Positions 10,361 to 32,040 of a stretch of 64,000 nt of DNA are shown here, piece by piece. Location: NCBI RefSeq assembly GCF_900182795.1, contig NZ_FXTX01000005.1, forward strand, positions 1-64,000, in the 5' to 3' direction. The DNA comes from Venenivibrio stagnispumantis. Its GTDB lineage: Bacteria; Aquificota; Aquificia; Aquificales; Hydrogenothermaceae. The notes beneath the pieces were generated by a model that was given only the letters and a program-made list of their open reading frames with translations, was not told the origin of the DNA and made no database searches. Each line of letters begins with the position of its first letter. Position 1 is the first letter of the stretch. The position numbers and the translations under genes were made by a program.

Positions 10361-10794
10361 GTTTGTAGCGTGCCTATGAGGAGTTGAAACTATACTTCTT
10401 CTCATTTTCGGTAGAAATAATATTTTTCGTTTGTAGCGTGCCTATGAGGAGTTGAAACTATTTTTCTTTTATGAAGCTTCCTTTTACCATTTTTTGTTTG
10501 TAGCGTGCCTATGAGGAGTTGAAACGCCTGACACATAACCAAAAAATCAGATACATCAAGAGTTTGTAGCGTGCCTATGAGGAGTTGAAACATTGTTTTT
10601 CATACATTTCTCTTTCTTTTTCTCTTTGTTTGTAGCGTGCCTATGAGGAGTTGAAACAGAAACAAACTTGGGCTTACACAGGAAGAATTTGCACAGAGTT
10701 TGTAGCGTGCCTATGAGGAGTTGAAACTACCTTCTAATATTTTGAAAAATACTTGATAAAACACGTTTGTAGCGTGCCTATGAGGAGTTGAAGT
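10361..10794 (+). CRISPR. CRISPR array, 7 repeats and 6 spacers, no cas genes in view
   Basis: Repeats of 30 bases start at 10361, 10429, 10496, 10562, 10628, 10698 and 10765. The first six are identical, beginning GTTTGTAGCG and ending GAGTTGAAAC; the seventh ends AAGT instead of AAAC, marking it as the leader-distal repeat. Spacers are 38, 37, 36, 36, 40 and 37 bases. Orientation is plus: the terminal repeat is degenerate on the right, GTTGAAAC at the 3' end would give the usual 8-base crRNA handle of type I-B/III systems, and a promoter lies on the left. The effector class is inferred from the repeat only. Confidence 0.98.
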
Positions 10795-10945
10795 CTGTCA
10801 AATGTTTTTATGTGGAAGGATATTTCAATGTTTCTCAAAAAATCTACTTTTTCCTTATTATCTTTTTAAATTCTAAAAAATATCTGCCAAACTTTGCTTT
10901 CTGTATGATATAATTTTTTAAGTTTAATTTTTTGAGGTAATTTTT

Positions 10946-23775: not shown

Positions 23776-24246
23776 TCCTTTGAGCAGCTAAAGTATGAAG
23801 AATGTCCTCAAAAGCTATTAAATTTAGCTACCAAATATGGGGTACCTGCCGAAAATGTTATTATAGAAATAACAGAAACAGAAACAATGAAAAATCCTGA
23901 AAAAAATATAGCAAGATTAAAAGCTATTAAAGAAATGGGATTTAAAATTTCCATAGATGATTTTGGAACCGGTTATTCATCATTAAATTATCTAAAACTT
24001 ATACCTGCTTCGGAAATAAAAATTGATAGAACATTTATAAATGATATGATTACAGATAATAATGATTTAGAACTTGTTAAGATTATTATAAATATTGCAA
24101 AAATAATGAATTTAAAAGTTGTAGCAGAAGGAGTAGAAACCAAAGAACATCTAACATTTTTACAGATTTTAGGTTGCGATTATGCACAAGGATATTACTT
24201 TTCTAAACCGGTTCCTTTTGAAGAATTTATAAAAAAATTAAAATAA
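23776..24246 (+). pseudogene. truncated EAL domain (c-di-GMP phosphodiesterase remnant)
   Basis: From 23776, just after an in-frame stop, the frame reads without break to 24246 as the C-terminal two thirds of an EAL domain: VIIEITETETM, DDFGTGYSSLNYLKLI, EIKIDRTFI, VVAEGVET and GCDYAQGYYFSKPVPFEEF. The first EAL/ExLxR part, the N-terminal strands and any sensor domain are absent. An ATG at 23887 exists but has no ribosome site and would drop further catalytic residues. So it is very likely a dead fragment left by a rearrangement between the hairpin at 23754 and the transposase fragment at 24251. Confidence 0.85.
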
Positions 24247-24250
24247 ATAC

Positions 24251-24410
24251 TACTAAGGACTTTTAGAATTAGAGCGAATATAATAATTTTATCATCATAT
24301 TTTTTAGGTCTTCCTCTTTTTCTTTCTTTTTCAGTTAATGAGTTACTTAATTCATTTAGATATTTAGATACTATTTTTAAAACCTTATAATTAGAGATTC
24401 TTTTTTTCAC
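24251..24410 (-). pseudogene. N-terminal transposase fragment
   Basis: Read leftwards from ATG 24410: a lysine-rich helical start with NYKVLKIVSKYLNE and KRGRPKKYDDKIIIFALIL, the look of the N-terminal part of an IS transposase. After about 53 residues the frame runs into the antisense of the EAL fragment, so the catalytic domain is missing. I cannot name the IS family with confidence, and no matching terminal inverted repeats were found on either side. Confidence 0.6.
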
Positions 24411-24525: not shown

Positions 24526-24554
24526 TTGACATTATAAAAAATTTTTTATATAAT
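24526..24554 (+). promoter_or_regulatory. consensus promoter of the efflux-SQR operon
   Basis: TTGACA (24526-24531), 17 bases, TATAAT (24549-24554): a full consensus sigma-70 promoter 38 bases before the tolC-like start codon. A 10-base palindrome ATATTAATAT (24567-24576) lies just downstream of the expected start site and could be an operator, though in such AT-rich DNA it may be chance. Confidence 0.8.
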
Positions 24555-24592
24555 TATATCGTAATAATATTAATATAGTTAAATGGTGAGAG

Positions 24593-25855
24593 ATGAAAAA
24601 ATTTTTTATTCCTCTTTTATCTGTGTGTTATCTTTCTTATGGGATAACAATTGATGAAGCTGTAAAAAAAGCTTTGGAAAATAACCTTGATATAAAAAAT
24701 CAAGTTATAAATGAAAAAATAGCAGAAGAAGGAATTAAAAAATCAGAGGCCACCAGATTTGGAAAATTAGATATATTTGCAAATTATATAGATTATAACT
24801 CAAGAAGAGTTGTTGCTCCTTTATCTCCACCGATAAATCCACAAAATTTAAAAGGCTCAAGAGATATATTTATTCCCGGCATAAATTATACTATCCCTCT
24901 TTTTACCGGATTTAATATAGAAAATCAGATAGAAATATCCAAACTAAATCAAAAATTAGAAAGTGTTAGAACAAATCTAACAAAAAATGAAATAGCTTTT
25001 AATGTTCGTTCAGTTTATTTAAAAATTTTAACCTTAAAAAAACAGCTTCAAGCTATGGAAAATTACAAAGAAGCTGTGGATAAATTATATAATGATATAG
25101 AGCAAGCATATAAGGTTGGAAAGAAACCGGAAGCAGATTTATTAAAAGTTCAATACCAAAAAGAAGCAGTAGAAAGCACTATACAGCAAATAAAAAATAA
25201 TATAGATACATTAAATAAAACATTACAAACATTATTAAATACACAGGAAAATATAGAAGTTGAAGATATAACTTTAAAAGATATAGACCCAAATCTAAAT
25301 GTAGATACTCTTTTAAAACAATACTATCAAGATTTATACAGCTATAAAGTTTTAAATCTTCAACAGAAAATCCAAGAAAGTAAAATAAATATAGCTAAAT
25401 CAGATTATTTTCCAACTATTTCTTTAAGCACAATTTACCAAAGAGATATTGGAGGTAGTGTCAATAGGGAAGATTGGCAAATAAGAGTTATGGGTAATTT
25501 AACTATTTTTGATTTTGGAAAAAGAAAAGCTAACCTTCTTGAAGAAAAATTATCATTATCAAAGGTAGATATACAAAAGCAAAAACTTCTTTTAGACAAA
25601 GAAAAACAATTAACAGATGCATTAAATCAGATAAAAACTGCTGATTTTAAAGTAAAAGCGACAGAAAAACAGCTAAAATATGCAATAGAAGTTGAAAGAG
25701 TAGAAAGATTAAAATATGATGAAGGTGTTTCATCTCTTTATGATTACCTTTATGCCCAAAGCCAAAGATATATAACGGAAGCCTCTTACTATGAAGATAT
25801 TTATGAAAAACAAAGAGCAATCTATTATCTATATTATGTATTAGAAAAAATTTAA
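24593..25855 (+). CDS. TolC-family outer membrane efflux protein
   Basis: 420 residues. Signal peptide MKKFFIPLLSVCYLSYG, then two outer-membrane-factor repeats with long amphipathic helices: AVKKALENNLDIKNQV early in repeat 1, KSDYFPTISLST at the strand region of repeat 2. It forms the trimeric outer membrane channel of a tripartite pump. First gene of the operon, ribosome site GGTGAGAG, 13 bases before the adaptor gene. Confidence 0.93.
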   Translation: MKKFFIPLLSVCYLSYGITIDEAVKKALENNLDIKNQVINEKIAEEGIKKSEATRFGKLDIFANYIDYNSRRVVAPLSPPINPQNLKGSRDIFIPGINYTIPLFTGFNIENQIEISKLNQKLESVRTNLTKNEIAFNVRSVYLKILTLKKQLQAMENYKEAVDKLYNDIEQAYKVGKKPEADLLKVQYQKEAVESTIQQIKNNIDTLNKTLQTLLNTQENIEVEDITLKDIDPNLNVDTLLKQYYQDLYSYKVLNLQQKIQESKINIAKSDYFPTISLSTIYQRDIGGSVNREDWQIRVMGNLTIFDFGKRKANLLEEKLSLSKVDIQKQKLLLDKEKQLTDALNQIKTADFKVKATEKQLKYAIEVERVERLKYDEGVSSLYDYLYAQSQRYITEASYYEDIYEKQRAIYYLYYVLEKI

Positions 25856-25868
25856 TGGAGTAGAAGAT

Positions 25869-27065
25869 ATGGAAAAGTCAAAGATTTTAAGAATTTTAAT
25901 TATCTTATTGGTGGTTTTCTTGATAGCTTTTTCTGCAATATATGTTCTGAAAAAAAGAAAACAAGAAATCAGTAATCTTCAAACTCCACAAGAGCCTGAA
26001 TATGTTGTTTCCGGTGCCATTGTAAAAAAAGGAGAAATTTATGACAAAAAGAAATATCTTGGAGAGATAGTTCCTGTAAATGAAGTTGAAATCTCTACAA
26101 AAATTCCCGGATATATTGAAAAAGTTTATGTAAATGAAGGAGATTTAGTAAAAAAAGGACAATTGGTTGTTAGTGTTGATGATACGGAAGCTAAACTTAC
26201 CATTGATAATCTAAAAATAAATCAGGAAGAAGCAATAAATCAGCTAAATAGCTTACAAGAATCTTTAAAATCTGCTCAAGCAAATTATGAATTTGCAAAA
26301 ACAAATTTTGAAAGAGATAAAAGATTATTTGAAGGTAAAGCAATATCAGAAATCCAATATCTGCAATCTAAAACCCAGTATGAAACAGCAAAAGCAAATG
26401 TAGAAGCAATTAAATCAAATATAGAAGCATTGAAAAATAAAGTTAAATCAGTAGAAAAGCAAATTGAGATAGCTACTGACAATCTGAAATATTTAAATAT
26501 ATATAGTGATATAGATGGAATAGTAAGTAGAGTTCTTTTAAGGGAAGGAAATATGGCACTTACCGGAAAACCTATTCTAAAAATACAATCCTTGGATAAT
26601 AAGATTCTAGTTAAATTTCCAAAAGAATATGTTGGAAAAATTAAAGAAAATGATATTGCAATAGTTGATTTTAATGGTGTCAAACAAGAATTAAAGATAT
26701 CAAAAATTTACCCTTCTGCCGATGAGAATAATCTTGCTGTTGCAGAGATATATCTTGGAAAATTACCGGAAAATACAATCTCAAACTCATTTATAAATGT
26801 ATCGGTTATTACAGGAAAAGTAGAAGGGCTATTAGTTCCGAAAAATGCAGTTTTAGAAATGACAAATGGAACTTTTGTAGTTGTGAATAAAAATGGTATA
26901 TTTACAAAAATTCCGGTAAAAGTAATAGCTTCTGATGAAGAAAATGCAGTTATTGAAGGTGATATACCGGAAGGAACTCCTGTTGCAGTAGGTATGGAAA
27001 ATAAACTTAGATTACTTACAATGGGCAAAAAAGGAAAAATCCTTTTGGAAGGTGGAAATAAATGA
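25869..27065 (+). CDS. RND efflux periplasmic adaptor protein
   Basis: Membrane fusion protein, 398 residues: one N-terminal transmembrane segment (about 7-27), lipoyl half VEISTKIPGYIEKVYVNEGDLVKKGQLV, a long coiled-coil hairpin (about 115-205), the second lipoyl half IYSDIDGIVSRVLLREG and beta-barrel. Links the RND pump to the TolC-like channel. It overlaps the pump gene by 4 bases. Confidence 0.94.
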   Translation: MEKSKILRILIILLVVFLIAFSAIYVLKKRKQEISNLQTPQEPEYVVSGAIVKKGEIYDKKKYLGEIVPVNEVEISTKIPGYIEKVYVNEGDLVKKGQLVVSVDDTEAKLTIDNLKINQEEAINQLNSLQESLKSAQANYEFAKTNFERDKRLFEGKAISEIQYLQSKTQYETAKANVEAIKSNIEALKNKVKSVEKQIEIATDNLKYLNIYSDIDGIVSRVLLREGNMALTGKPILKIQSLDNKILVKFPKEYVGKIKENDIAIVDFNGVKQELKISKIYPSADENNLAVAEIYLGKLPENTISNSFINVSVITGKVEGLLVPKNAVLEMTNGTFVVVNKNGIFTKIPVKVIASDEENAVIEGDIPEGTPVAVGMENKLRLLTMGKKGKILLEGGNK

Positions 27066-30000
27066 ATCAAAATTTAATAACTTTTGTATTAAAAAGACCT
27101 CACTTTGTCCTTTCTGTATTATTTGCATTAACTATTCTTGGAATAATAGGATTTTTTAATATCAAACAAAAACTTTTTCCGGATGCAGATAGACCTCAAA
27201 TTGCAGTTGTAGTTATTGAACATGGTGCTTCTGCAAAAGATATGGCAGATAATGTAGCAAATCCAATAGAAAGAAGATTATATACAATAGATAGAGTAAG
27301 AAGAGTTTTTTCTACATCAAAAGATGAAGTGGCAGTTATTACAGCAGAGTTTGACTATGATAAAGATTTAGGGGAAGCGGCTACCGATGTTGCCAATGAA
27401 TTATCTAAAATAAAATCTCAACTTCCGAAGGATATAGAAGACCCACAAATATATAAAATATCTTCTGCAACTCCACCGGCTATTGTTTTATCAGTTTATC
27501 CTAAAGATAAATCTATAGATTTAGCAGATGTTAGACAGATAGCAGAAAATCAAATAAAAAATGAGATTTTAAAATTAAGCTCTGTTGCAAATGTTGATGT
27601 TTTTGGTGGCTATCAAAAAGAAGTATTTATTGAGATAGATAAAGATAAACTAAATGAACATAATCTATCTTTACCTTTTGTGTTATATAAAATTAAAGAA
27701 ACAAATGCAGATTTACCAATTGGATTTATAATAAATCAAAATGGAGAATTCCTTCTAAAATCTCTTAATAAAGCAACTACCCTTGAACAACTAAAAAATA
27801 TTCAGATAACAAAAGATATAAAACTTTCGGATATTGCAAAAATAAAATATGATTATTATGAAAATAATTCTCTTTATTATGGTAATGGTAAACCGGCTAT
27901 AGCCCTTGCAGTCCAAAGACAACCTACCGGAGATACTCTTAGAACAATTGATGAAGTAAAATCTATAATACCTAAGCTCCAAAAGGAATTTCCTGAGCTT
28001 GGATTTGAGATTACAGATTCACAGGAAAAGATAATCAGATTAAGTAATCTAAATATGATAGAGGCTTTAAGAGATGCTATCATAATGACAGCAATTGTCA
28101 TATTTTTCTTCCTTTCAAATTTAAGACAGATGATTATTGCAGGTTTATCAATTCCTTTTGTTTATGGTATAACCATTGCAATAATGTGGCTTCTTGGAAT
28201 GGAATTTAATATTGTAACACTTACCGGTATTATCTTAGCTTTGGGTATGCTTGTTGATGATGCTGTTGTTGTTTTAGAAAATATTGAGAGACATTTATAT
28301 GAATTAAAAGAACCTACCAAAGAAGCAGTTATAAATGGAACAAAAGAAGTTGTGTTTGCAGTTTTATCCGGTACAATAGCCACATCTGTTGTTTTAATAC
28401 CACTTTTATTTGTAGGTGATTATCCTCAATATATATTTAGACCTCTTGCAGGAACACTTTTAATTGCAGTTATCATATCTTTCTTTGTCTCTATAACATT
28501 TATTCCACTTATTGCTCCTTATTTACTGAAAAAAGATAACTCAAAAAATAAATTAGAAAGTGTTGTTTATAGAATATCTGAAGCAATAATAACACCTTTA
28601 AAAAATCTTTATGTAACTGCCGTTTCTTTTGTTTTTAAAAGAAAATTTCTGGCAAGACCTTATTTTGTATTTATCATTATGATGTTTATTGTTAGTTTAA
28701 AAATAATTTTACCAACAATTGGAAGAGAAATAATGCCTCCTATGGATACAGGAATAGTAAAAGGAGATATAGTTGCAGATAGTAATCTTTCTATATATCA
28801 GGTGGAAGATATAGTTAAAAAAATCTCTGAAATGCTTAAAAATGATAAAAGGGTTGAGATGGTATCAATAGCTGTTGGTTCAGAACCGGGTGTATTTACA
28901 ATGGGCTCCGGTAAAACAACACAAAATATAAGCATTACAATCCATTATGTAGATAGATTCCACAGAAAAGAAGATATTTGGAGCATAGAAAGAGAACTAT
29001 CAAAAAAAATAAGAGAAATTCCAAATATAAAATATGTTAGTATTTATGATTATGGTGCTACTCCTTTATCTACTGTAAGGGCAAATCTTGATGTTATGGT
29101 CAGCGGTGATGACTTAAAAACTCTTGATAAAATAGCAAATAACATTATGGAAAAAACATATCAAGTTAAAGGAATAAAATCTGTTTCAAGAAGTTGGGAT
29201 TATGATAAAATTACATATAATCTGAAAATAGATTATGCTCTTGCTTCTTTTTATGGTATAACACCATTTGATGTAGCAAGCCAGTTAAGCACAAAAATTA
29301 GAGGTTCTGTTATATCCTTTTATAATATACCTAATGAAAAATCTCTTAATGTGAGGGTGGTATATAACAAAGAAAATAGAGATTCCTTACTTGATTTAGA
29401 CTCATATTATATAACCACACCAAAAGGAAATATTCCTTTATCTGCAGTTGCTAAAATTGAAAAAAATATAGAGCCAACGGTAATCACAAGGGAAGGATTA
29501 AATTATACCGTTGATATCTTAGGATACAGAGAAAAAGCCGCTATATCTCATATAATGGAAAGTTTTAAAGAAGTTATGGAGAAATCAAAAGTGAAACTTC
29601 CACCGGGATATGAAATTTCTCAAGAAGGCGATGTTAAAGAGATGATGGATTCTATGGGTAGAATGTTAAAAGCCATAGGAATTGGTATAATTCTTTTATT
29701 CTTTGCTCTTGTTCCTCCATTTCGTTCTTTCTCTGCTCCTATTGCAGTTATATTTGCAGTTCCGCTTTCTGTTATCGGAGCATCCTGGGCTATACTTATA
29801 ATGGGATATCATCAATCAATGCCGGGACTTATGGGTATTGTATTATTAGCCGGTATAATAACAAAAAACTCAATTCTTTTAATTGATTTTATAAATGATG
29901 CATTATCAAAAGGAAAAGATATAGAAACTGCCATATTGGATAGTATAAAAATTAGAACAAGACCTGTTTTAATGACTGCATTTGGAACTTCTGTTGGAAT

Positions 30001-30169
30001 GATACCAATTGCCCTTGGATGGGCTCTCGGACTTGAAAGGCTTGCACCTCTTGGAGCGGTTGCAATAGGAGGATTAATTATAGGAACATTCTTAACCCTT
30101 ATTTATGTTCCTCTTCTTTATTATTTCTTTTATAAAATAAAATCAAAATTCGGCTTTGCAGGAGGATAA
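27062..30169 (+). CDS. RND efflux pump, HAE1-like inner membrane transporter
   Basis: 1035 residues, full length, 12 transmembrane segments in two halves. TM4 carries LALGMLVDDAVVVLENIERH with the paired Asp of proton relay, as in drug-type (HAE1) pumps; heavy-metal pumps have a different TM4 pattern. C-terminal half has GIVLLAGIITKNSILLIDF. Substrate unknown. The next gene, an SQR-like flavoprotein, begins only 2 bases after the stop, so pump and oxidoreductase share a transcript. Confidence 0.95.
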   Translation: MNQNLITFVLKRPHFVLSVLFALTILGIIGFFNIKQKLFPDADRPQIAVVVIEHGASAKDMADNVANPIERRLYTIDRVRRVFSTSKDEVAVITAEFDYDKDLGEAATDVANELSKIKSQLPKDIEDPQIYKISSATPPAIVLSVYPKDKSIDLADVRQIAENQIKNEILKLSSVANVDVFGGYQKEVFIEIDKDKLNEHNLSLPFVLYKIKETNADLPIGFIINQNGEFLLKSLNKATTLEQLKNIQITKDIKLSDIAKIKYDYYENNSLYYGNGKPAIALAVQRQPTGDTLRTIDEVKSIIPKLQKEFPELGFEITDSQEKIIRLSNLNMIEALRDAIIMTAIVIFFFLSNLRQMIIAGLSIPFVYGITIAIMWLLGMEFNIVTLTGIILALGMLVDDAVVVLENIERHLYELKEPTKEAVINGTKEVVFAVLSGTIATSVVLIPLLFVGDYPQYIFRPLAGTLLIAVIISFFVSITFIPLIAPYLLKKDNSKNKLESVVYRISEAIITPLKNLYVTAVSFVFKRKFLARPYFVFIIMMFIVSLKIILPTIGREIMPPMDTGIVKGDIVADSNLSIYQVEDIVKKISEMLKNDKRVEMVSIAVGSEPGVFTMGSGKTTQNISITIHYVDRFHRKEDIWSIERELSKKIREIPNIKYVSIYDYGATPLSTVRANLDVMVSGDDLKTLDKIANNIMEKTYQVKGIKSVSRSWDYDKITYNLKIDYALASFYGITPFDVASQLSTKIRGSVISFYNIPNEKSLNVRVVYNKENRDSLLDLDSYYITTPKGNIPLSAVAKIEKNIEPTVITREGLNYTVDILGYREKAAISHIMESFKEVMEKSKVKLPPGYEISQEGDVKEMMDSMGRMLKAIGIGIILLFFALVPPFRSFSAPIAVIFAVPLSVIGASWAILIMGYHQSMPGLMGIVLLAGIITKNSILLIDFINDALSKGKDIETAILDSIKIRTRPVLMTAFGTSVGMIPIALGWALGLERLAPLGAVAIGGLIIGTFLTLIYVPLLYYFFYKIKSKFGFAGG

Positions 30170-30171
30170 AA

Positions 30172-31392
30172 ATGAAGAAAAAAATAGTTATCATCGGTGC
30201 AGGATTTGGAGGATTAAGAGTCCTTTATAATTTGGAAAAATATAAGGACAAGTTTGATTTTACAGTGATTAATAAAACAGATTATTCTTTGGAGCGTCCG
30301 GCTTTACCTGAAGTTGCTATTGAGGGAAAACCTGTTTCTAAAGCACAGATAAAAATAAAAGATTATTTAGAAAAAAAAGGCATTAACTTTAAACTTGGAG
30401 AAGTTAAAGAAATAAAGCCAGAAAGAAATGAGGTTATAGTAGATGAAGAAATTATACCTTATGACTATTTAATTATTGCTACCGGTTCAATAAAAGATTA
30501 TGATTCAATAAAAGGATACAGAGAATATGGATACTCTGTTTGTGATGATAAAGAGGCTTCAAAACTTTATGAAAGATTGAAAACCTTTGAAGGTGGTAAT
30601 GTAGTTGTAGGTGCTGCAAGAAGTTATTTTGGTCATGTGGTAGAAGCACCTGATTTAAAAGCTCCCTGTGAAGGTCCTGTTGGAGAAGTTATGTTTATGA
30701 TAGACCATAGATTAAGAAAAGAAGGTAAGAGAGAAAAAAGTAGTATAAATGTTTTTACTCCCGGAGAAATATTTTTTGAAGACGTTGGAGATAACCCCAG
30801 AAATACGGTAGGAAAATTCATGGAAGAAAGAGGCATAAAACTCCATCTAAATAAAGAACTTGTAGAAATTACAGATAAAGAAGTAATATTTAAAGATGGA
30901 AGTAGTTTACCTTGCGATTTAGCCATTATAATTGCACCATATAAAGCACCGGATTTTATAAAAGAATCCGGTCTTGGAGATGATATGGGATGGGTTCCTA
31001 CAGATAGAACGATGAAACACATAAAATATGACAATATATATGCAGTTGGAGATGTTAATGCTTTAGCACAGCCAAAACTTGGACATATAGCAGTTATGCA
31101 AGCAGATGTTGCGTCCTCTGCAATAGAAAAACAAGAAGGATTAACAGATGAAATAAAGCCATTTAAACCGGAAGTATTTTGTATTATGAATATGGGTGGT
31201 TTTGAAGCAACATTAATTTTATCAAATGCTCTTTATGAAAATGAGTATGATATTGCATGGCATTCTCCGATAGCAAAATTGATGAAAATTAGTTTTGATG
31301 AAGAATATTATTATGCTCACGGTAAATTACCACCTGATTTTATGATAGAAATAAGTAATTATTTAATAAAAAAACTTTTTGGAGGTAAGTAA
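30172..31392 (+). CDS. sulfide:quinone reductase-like flavoprotein
   Basis: 406 residues. FAD-binding GAGFGGLRVLYNLEKY at residues 9-24, second dinucleotide-fold ATGS at 103-106, and FAD-closing IYAVGDVNA. Cysteines at 124, 166 and 337 lie close to the places of the three redox cysteines of known SQRs (124, 156 and 347 in the Aquifex enzyme, from memory). The C-terminal amphipathic helices fit monotopic membrane attachment. Sulfide oxidation with quinone is likely but another SQR-clade function is possible. Confidence 0.75.
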   Translation: MKKKIVIIGAGFGGLRVLYNLEKYKDKFDFTVINKTDYSLERPALPEVAIEGKPVSKAQIKIKDYLEKKGINFKLGEVKEIKPERNEVIVDEEIIPYDYLIIATGSIKDYDSIKGYREYGYSVCDDKEASKLYERLKTFEGGNVVVGAARSYFGHVVEAPDLKAPCEGPVGEVMFMIDHRLRKEGKREKSSINVFTPGEIFFEDVGDNPRNTVGKFMEERGIKLHLNKELVEITDKEVIFKDGSSLPCDLAIIIAPYKAPDFIKESGLGDDMGWVPTDRTMKHIKYDNIYAVGDVNALAQPKLGHIAVMQADVASSAIEKQEGLTDEIKPFKPEVFCIMNMGGFEATLILSNALYENEYDIAWHSPIAKLMKISFDEEYYYAHGKLPPDFMIEISNYLIKKLFGGK

Positions 31393-31393
31393 A

Positions 31394-31777
31394 ATGTCAA
31401 ATCAAATGCCAACTGTAGAACAGATTTTAGAAATGATGGCTAAAAAATTAGGAGGTAAAGAAAATATTCCGGAAGCGATAGTTTATGCAAAAGATGTTGC
31501 TCCTGATATTGTTCAGCAAATAGCCATGTCATCAAAACAAAGTGTAAATGATGAAAATTCACCATTTGACCCAAAAACTGCAAATTTAATATATTTAGCA
31601 GCTGCACTTGCAATGAAAGATGAGGAATGTATAAAAGCAACTTTAAATGCAGCATTAACATTTGGAACTACAAAAGAAGAGCTTTTATATGTAGTAAAAA
31701 TTGTAAGACATGCTGCAAATAATGGAATAATCGGAGCAGCAACACCAATATTTAAAGCATTGGCTGAAAATAAATAA
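31394..31777 (+). CDS. carboxymuconolactone-decarboxylase (AhpD) fold protein
   Basis: 127 residues from ATG 31394, which has GGAGGT 7 bases upstream; an in-frame TTG at 31379 would overlap the SQR gene. Helical, with the CMD-like stretch AAALAMKDEECIKATLNAALTFGTTKEELLYVV and GIIGAATPIFKAL. The catalytic CxxC of AhpD is absent; a single Cys lies in EECIKA, so peroxidase activity is doubtful. Placed directly behind the SQR-like gene, it may serve the same pathway. Confidence 0.75.
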   Translation: MSNQMPTVEQILEMMAKKLGGKENIPEAIVYAKDVAPDIVQQIAMSSKQSVNDENSPFDPKTANLIYLAAALAMKDEECIKATLNAALTFGTTKEELLYVVKIVRHAANNGIIGAATPIFKALAENK

Positions 31778-31791
31778 GGAGGTGAAAGAAA

Positions 31792-31977
31792 ATGTTAGAT
31801 TTAAAATTAAATGAACTTATGATGGAAACAAAACTTGCTCTAAAACTAGGTAAAATTGACACTGCAAAAAAGCACGCTCAGGAAATCATAGATTACATTA
31901 ATGAGAAAAATTTAAAAGGTTTGCCTTATGACAAAGCTAAGTATTTTGCAGAAGTAGTTTTAGAAATAGAAGAATAA
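31792..31977 (+). CDS. 61-residue helical protein, function unknown
   Basis: MLDLKLNELMMETKLALKLG opens a short, charged, helical protein without cysteines, signal or membrane segment. The ribosome site AAGGAGGTGA is very strong and the gene starts 14 bases after the CMD gene, so it is probably translated as the last member of the efflux-SQR operon. I do not recognise the family. Confidence 0.6.
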   Translation: MLDLKLNELMMETKLALKLGKIDTAKKHAQEIIDYINEKNLKGLPYDKAKYFAEVVLEIEE

Positions 31978-32040
31978 TTTTTAAGAATAGTTGGAGTTGC
32001 TACTCCTATATTTAAAACAATTTCAAAAATGGAGGAATAA
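31978..32040 (+). pseudogene. remnant of a second CMD-fold gene
   Basis: Directly after and in frame with the stop of the 61-residue gene, the DNA reads IVGVATPIFKTISKMEE then stop. This closely repeats the end of the upstream CMD protein (IIGAATPIFKALAENK). It looks like the tail of a duplicated copy whose front was deleted, or a recombination scar. Confidence 0.65.

Follow-up and report, generated by a model that had tools for sequence, protein, structure and literature searches.

What joins a tripartite efflux pump to a flavoprotein of the SQR family in what appears to be one transcript? The question is raised by nucleotides 24526–31977 of a 64,000-nucleotide stretch of Venenivibrio stagnispumantis DNA (the window). 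The initial annotation had suggested that the pump could export polysulfide, sulfur or a toxic side product of the SQR reaction. Sulfide as organising signal and polysulfide or sulfur as likely cargo find no support here: the promoter, the encoded proteins and the neighbourhoods of their relatives point instead to arsenic and antimony.

The operon and its promoter

Six plus-strand open reading frames follow one another with gaps of 13, −4, 2, 1 and 14 nt, as had been claimed for a single operon, and a Shine-Dalgarno-like sequence lies ahead of every one of the six starts. They encode a TolC-family outer membrane channel (420 aa; 24593–25855; Pfam OEP, 3.8e-42), a periplasmic adaptor or membrane fusion protein (MFP, 398 aa; 25869–27065; NCBIfam RND_mfp, 5.4e-42, above cut-off), an HAE-1/MdtB-like RND permease (1035 aa; 27062–30169; Pfam ACR_tran, 1.9e-206), an SQR-family flavoprotein (406 aa; 30172–31392; Pyr_redox_2, 1.2e-26), a CMD/AhpD-fold protein (127 aa; 31394–31777; Pfam CMD, 2.3e-8; alternative TTG start at 31379) and an orphan protein of 61 aa (31792–31977; strong Shine-Dalgarno sequence AGGAGGTG). 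Neither arsR, arsB, acr3 nor arsC was found within 24593–31977; the ars genes of this genome lie on its contig 23, which counts against the arsenic and antimony function argued for below. The consensus promoter reported at 24526 was likewise recovered: the sigma-70-type sequence TTGACA-17-TATAAT (24526–24554, plus strand) matches the consensus at 12/12 positions and was the best of 52 in 9.5 kb.

Just 5′ of the promoter lie two pieces of decayed mobile or regulatory DNA (23887–24246 and 24195–24410, minus strand): an EAL-domain gene reduced to its C-terminal half, and a short fragment that resembles a transposase. At the other end, an in-frame remnant on the plus strand (31978–32040) follows the 61-aa stop codon immediately and looks like the C-terminal end of an additional CMD copy (FLRIVGVATPIFKTISKMEE versus IIGAATPIFKALAENK, compared by eye and unscored). 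Elsewhere in the window, a CRISPR-like array (10361–10804) contains seven 30-nt repeats, GTTTGTAGCGTGCCTATGAGGAGTTGAAAC, at a spacing of 66–70 nt, the last one being degenerate.

The promoter spacer between the −35 and −10 boxes is filled by a perfect 18-bp palindrome, TATAAAAAATTTTTTATA (24533–24550), which overlaps the −10 box and is a candidate ArsR operator. Exact-site searches located it at only two positions in the window genome (G000; 1.56 Mb), the pump promoter and the ars operon, where it precedes h91-arsB-arsC. In five ars operons (G000, G007, G004, G057 and G053), a comparison of upstream regions also placed it 5′ of h91. The 61 Aquificota genomes contain 23 exact sites and none of the reversed control pattern. 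By their gene maps, 14 of the 23 precede ars operons, including the two, in G057 and G053, that contain TolC-MFP-RND as well, and five precede operons of the window pump subfamily (G000, G010, G008, G028 and G033). The remaining four come from two pairs of close relatives, two sites lying ahead of a murC-like gene (L214 and L215, in G057 and G053) and two near a CorA-like gene, both genes being named by eye; that these genes are unrelated to arsenic or the pump counts against an arsenic and antimony function. Sites with up to two mismatches were rejected as regulon members, since their number (26, against 24 for the control) is at background, and only exact sites were therefore counted. One single-mismatch site (C26:12087) has no recognisable ars gene downstream. 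Near-matches in the pump promoters of G011 and G004 are suggestive, and close variants of the palindrome occur in the ars operons of G026 and G010.

The ArsR of the window genome is encoded on contig 23 in the order ArsR-h91-ArsB-ArsC, with neither SQR nor CMD, and is of the CxC type (YNELCVCQLQP). A CVC or CIC motif is present in the ArsR proteins of the palindrome-bearing ars operons; CxC is the known arsenite-sensor motif of ArsR. Judged from sequence, there is a strong case that the window operon belongs to the ArsR regulon of its genome, with ArsR presumed to bind the palindrome, and the operator predicts such a regulon across several genera. The gene set is thus most likely a defence against arsenic and antimony rather than a sulfur exporter, because its switch sequence is the one found before the arsenic-resistance genes of the same cell.

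The protein designated h91 deserves separate mention. This conserved protein of about 91 aa is encoded directly behind the candidate operator in many Aquificota ars operons (L193:6324–6602; L040:12666–12941; L178:14255–14539; and others). It has a recurrent motif, NC(Q/K)xGxC(D/E)CM, and no Pfam match above cut-off, and is a candidate new metalloid-binding ars protein.

The pump, the flavoprotein and the small proteins

Among proteins of solved structure, MdtB is the closest to the permease (1e-101), whose VDDAVVV and TKNSILLIDF segments align with it in the regions of the Asp pair and the Lys that serve the RND proton relay. Permease, adaptor and outer-membrane channel are all present, as in HAE-1 RND tripartite pumps, and the family matches, together with the permease tree given below, uphold the tripartite pump and assign it to a distinct subfamily. 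The usual cargo of HAE-1-type pumps is organic compounds and not inorganic metalloids, which counts against an arsenic or antimony function.

The nearest NCBIfam model for the flavoprotein, SQR_III_seleno, was missed at its cut-off (140 bits versus 525), a seleno-subtype threshold that is not required of SQR generally. The best solved sequence match is the SQR of Acidianus ambivalens (3h8i, 9.8e-79), with three cysteines aligned; these residues, C124, C166 and C337, do not vary among 19 relatives drawn from several phyla. In the predicted structure (pLDDT 91.6) the least confident part is the C-terminus, the membrane-binding region of SQR. Its 20 best PDB matches are all SQR, with TM scores reaching 0.87; NDH-2 and flavocytochrome c rank lower. 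What had been called SQR-like is a genuine member of the SQR family. With the A. ambivalens enzyme (3h8i/3h8l) it shares the three equivalent cysteines and, across the fold alignment, 36% identity; from that enzyme it differs in being bacterial and in lying with a pump in an ArsR-type regulon; its SQR activity is a prediction. A second SQR-like gene of the window genome (L190) lies outside any ars or pump context; V. stagnispumantis CP.B2 from Champagne Pool has been reported to carry arsRBC and two sqr genes (PMC10762115).

The CMD protein had been described as having lost the CxxC of AhpD. This is half correct: the site reads DEEC, so that the first cysteine is gone, but the second (C79) is retained in 23/23 aligned sequences, in all of which E78 and H106 are also invariant. 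The closest PDB relative, the Thermus thermophilus CMD-fold protein TTHA0727 (2cwq), is distant (62 bits) and has the single aligned cysteine in common. The 61-aa protein is predicted to form a three-helix bundle (pLDDT 94.9). No relative was detected in the 61 genomes, Pfam or NCBIfam, nor any fold match at E <0.001.

Neighbourhoods in Aquificota and Campylobacterota

Among the family genomes included in the 61 Aquificota searched, the window genome represents the sole species of its genus. Four other genomes (G007, G017, G026 and G004) encode close relatives of the SQR-like protein, with 54–87% identity, and seven encode close relatives of the CMD protein. Within the same family, 5/5 close SQR-like genes and 8/8 CMD genes are situated in ars operons or with a window-type pump, one of them by synteny. 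The SQR-like gene is inside the ars operons of the four genomes named; the CMD gene is inside those of G007, G017, G026 and G036, and adjoins the pump in G000, G001 and G008. For G028, the CMD-pump link is inferred, since the CMD gene is at a contig end and the synteny is G008-like.

The fullest order, h91-ArsR-ArsB-SQR-CMD-DUF2231-ArsC-ThiE, is that of G007, of which the operons of G017, G026 and G004 are truncated or shortened forms; G036 has ArsR-ArsB-CMD-ArsC. Pfam confirms ArsB, the ArsR HTH and an LMW-phosphatase-type ArsC in these neighbourhoods. Pump-associated arrangements are CMD-TolC-MFP-(VapBC-like pair)-RND in G001 and MFP-RND-TolC-(transposase-like)-CMD in G008, while in G057 and G053 the pump genes are within the ars operon itself (h91-ArsR-ArsC-TolC-MFP-RND). 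The pair in G001 (L045:3487–4117), toxin-antitoxin-like when judged by eye (PIN-like plus a small partner), splits the pump operon between adaptor and RND permease. Since the SQR-like and CMD genes are found in both the ars and the pump operons of relatives, they evidently move between the two. Against an arsenic or antimony function, the pump of most other Hydrogenothermaceae is accompanied by neither the exact palindrome nor SQR or CMD, and in several a divergent TetR gene lies beside it.

The residence of the SQR-like gene in ars operons would also suit electron harvest by an arsenite- or thioarsenite:quinone oxidoreductase whose product the pump removes; passages of one paper propose such an enzyme activity for the SQR of Synechocystis and Geitlerinema (PMC5061849). 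However, all three cysteines of sulfide oxidation are kept, and no dissimilatory arsenic genes are noted for V. stagnispumantis (PMC10762115); we regard this explanation as very unlikely.

A scan based on the SQR alignment, with one genome per species, yielded 54 loci, mostly from Campylobacterota. A same-strand RND gene ends within 5 kb upstream of SQR at 8 of the 32 loci that have at least 4.5 kb upstream, a frequency that, by selection, holds for loci found through SQR and not for all such pumps. CMD occurs within 6 kb of SQR at 14 loci and ArsR, ArsB or ArsC within 7 kb at eight. The typical order is TetR-TolC-MFP-RND-(thioredoxin-like, DUF4395 or CMD)-SQR-(rhodanese, TauE, cation-diffusion facilitator, Trx_3, ArsP_1). 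Gene order, whose conservation in relatives had been proposed as a check on the operon, is thus only partly conserved in Hydrogenothermaceae but recurs in Campylobacterota.

A tree of 52 permeases, built by a quick method whose output warned of long outgroup branches, groups the window pump with G001 and G011 (support 100) and G057/G053 with G008/G028/G033 (support 99). The SQR-linked pumps of Campylobacterota form an independent clade of 13 (support 100), several of them with CMD, ArsC, ArsR or ArsP. From these groupings, at least three pump clades have entered into association with SQR, CMD or ars genes. Because the window pump and the Campylobacterota SQR-linked pumps are not sisters, descent of the complete set by simple vertical inheritance was rejected.

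The operon might be a mosaic, in which a general multidrug pump came under ArsR control and ars accessory genes (SQR-like and CMD) were appended by recombination, the parts acting independently. The same pump does stand alone in sister genomes, several times beside a TetR gene, the operon is bordered by relics of an additional CMD copy, an EAL gene and a transposase, and the 61-aa gene occurs in the window genome only, among the 61. Yet the pump is combined with SQR-like and/or CMD and ars genes in separate pump clades of two phyla, which disfavours chance assembly, and the gap between pump and SQR is 2 nt; a mosaic is accordingly judged unlikely.

The same neighbourhoods bear on the sulfur-based explanation, in which sulfide induces an operon whose SQR oxidises it and whose pump disposes of polysulfide, sulfur or a by-product. 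The true SQR fold with its three cysteines speaks for it, as do the rhodanese, TauE, Trx_3 and YgaP-like genes adjoining the Campylobacterota versions and the sulfidic springs that V. stagnispumantis inhabits (PMC10762115). It fits poorly with a promoter bearing the palindrome of ars operons that are regulated by CxC ArsR proteins, with SQR-like and CMD genes that are ars-operon members in sister genera, and with the presence of L190 away from the ars and pump genes. On the operator and the ars linkage, sulfide export was rejected as the primary reading and is considered quite improbable. Sulfur chemistry may still belong to the mechanism, because rhodanese, TauE and thioredoxin-like genes accompany the operon versions of Campylobacterota.

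A probable arsenic and antimony response

The favoured explanation, to which we assign a probability of roughly 0.7, is that the operon is part of the ArsR regulon and serves arsenic and antimony stress in sulfide-rich water. It draws on the gene set, the common palindrome, the ars linkage of the SQR-like and CMD genes, the SQR fold and cysteines and the identity of the RND pump, all read from sequence; for the binding by ArsR, the inducer, the substrate of the enzyme, the cargo of the pump and a two-step route of export, the following is proposed. When no metalloid is present, the ArsR encoded with h91-arsB-arsC on the other contig would block transcription by occupying the palindrome in the −35/−10 spacer, and As(III) or Sb(III) would free the promoter of it. 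ArsC and ArsB would reduce the metalloid and export it from the cytosol. The membrane SQR-family flavoprotein would supply sulfane sulfur or act on thiolated arsenic species, the single-cysteine CMD protein may pass or buffer the sulfane sulfur, and the TolC-adaptor-RND pump would take up a resulting thio-metalloid or toxic by-product in the periplasm and expel it through the outer membrane. Because the substrate of RND pumps is drawn largely from the periplasm, such a pump could complete the export begun by ArsB. Sulfane sulfur from SQR might combine with As(III) to give thioarsenates, which are reported to be less toxic and to abound in such springs (PMC4220137). Taken alone, the thio-metalloid step is possible, with the odds against it. 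Tentative too, and doubtful as a whole, is a dedicated metalloid-sulfur export, in which sulfane sulfur from an ArsR-induced SQR-family enzyme would turn arsenite or antimonite into thio-species that a specialised RND subfamily expels through the outer membrane, the system having come together separately in Aquificota and in Campylobacterota. If true, it would have no precedent known to us as a tripartite RND system dedicated to arsenic.

Bacterial arsenic resistance has so far been told almost wholly through inner-membrane exporters (ArsB, Acr3 and ArsP). If an ars operator controls a tripartite pump alongside an SQR-family enzyme, this picture would widen to include export across the outer membrane and the redox chemistry of sulfur, and there would be a concrete gene set for thioarsenic handling by microbes of sulfidic, arsenic-rich springs. 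The open-access literature yielded no RND pump in an ars regulon, a PeerJ 2015 survey of ars-operon transporters and arsenic reviews make no mention of RND, and the earlier statement that no system with the whole gene set has been described held for the same literature. No description of an ArsR-regulated RND pump was thus found, and the co-regulation of SQR with arsenic genes is already known; what appears to be new is the extension of the ars regulon by a tripartite pump and an SQR.

Several known systems share parts of this arrangement. In Synechocystis PCC 6803, according to passages of two papers citing Nagy et al. 2014, the sqr operon is induced by sulfide or arsenite (PMC6620896, PMC5061849), SQR being co-regulated with arsenic genes as in the window; that operon is cyanobacterial and those passages mention no RND pump, whereas the window SQR is nearest that of A. 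ambivalens and its operator is common with an RND pump. The sqr2 region of Geitlerinema PCC 9228 has arsRBC downstream of sqr and a multidrug efflux pump gene upstream (PMC5061849); this sqr2 is of type VI and from a cyanobacterium, and the pump type is not given in the passages concerned. With the HAE-1 systems MdtABC, AcrAB-TolC and CmeABC the window pump has the three-part architecture in common, its permease being closest to MdtB, but it forms a distinct subfamily with a candidate ArsR site and linked metalloid and sulfur genes. Compared with the ars operon (arsR-arsB-arsC plus accessory genes), the window operon has the same candidate operator and, as in the ars operons of sister genera, SQR-like and CMD genes as members; in place of arsR, arsB and arsC it has a tripartite RND pump.
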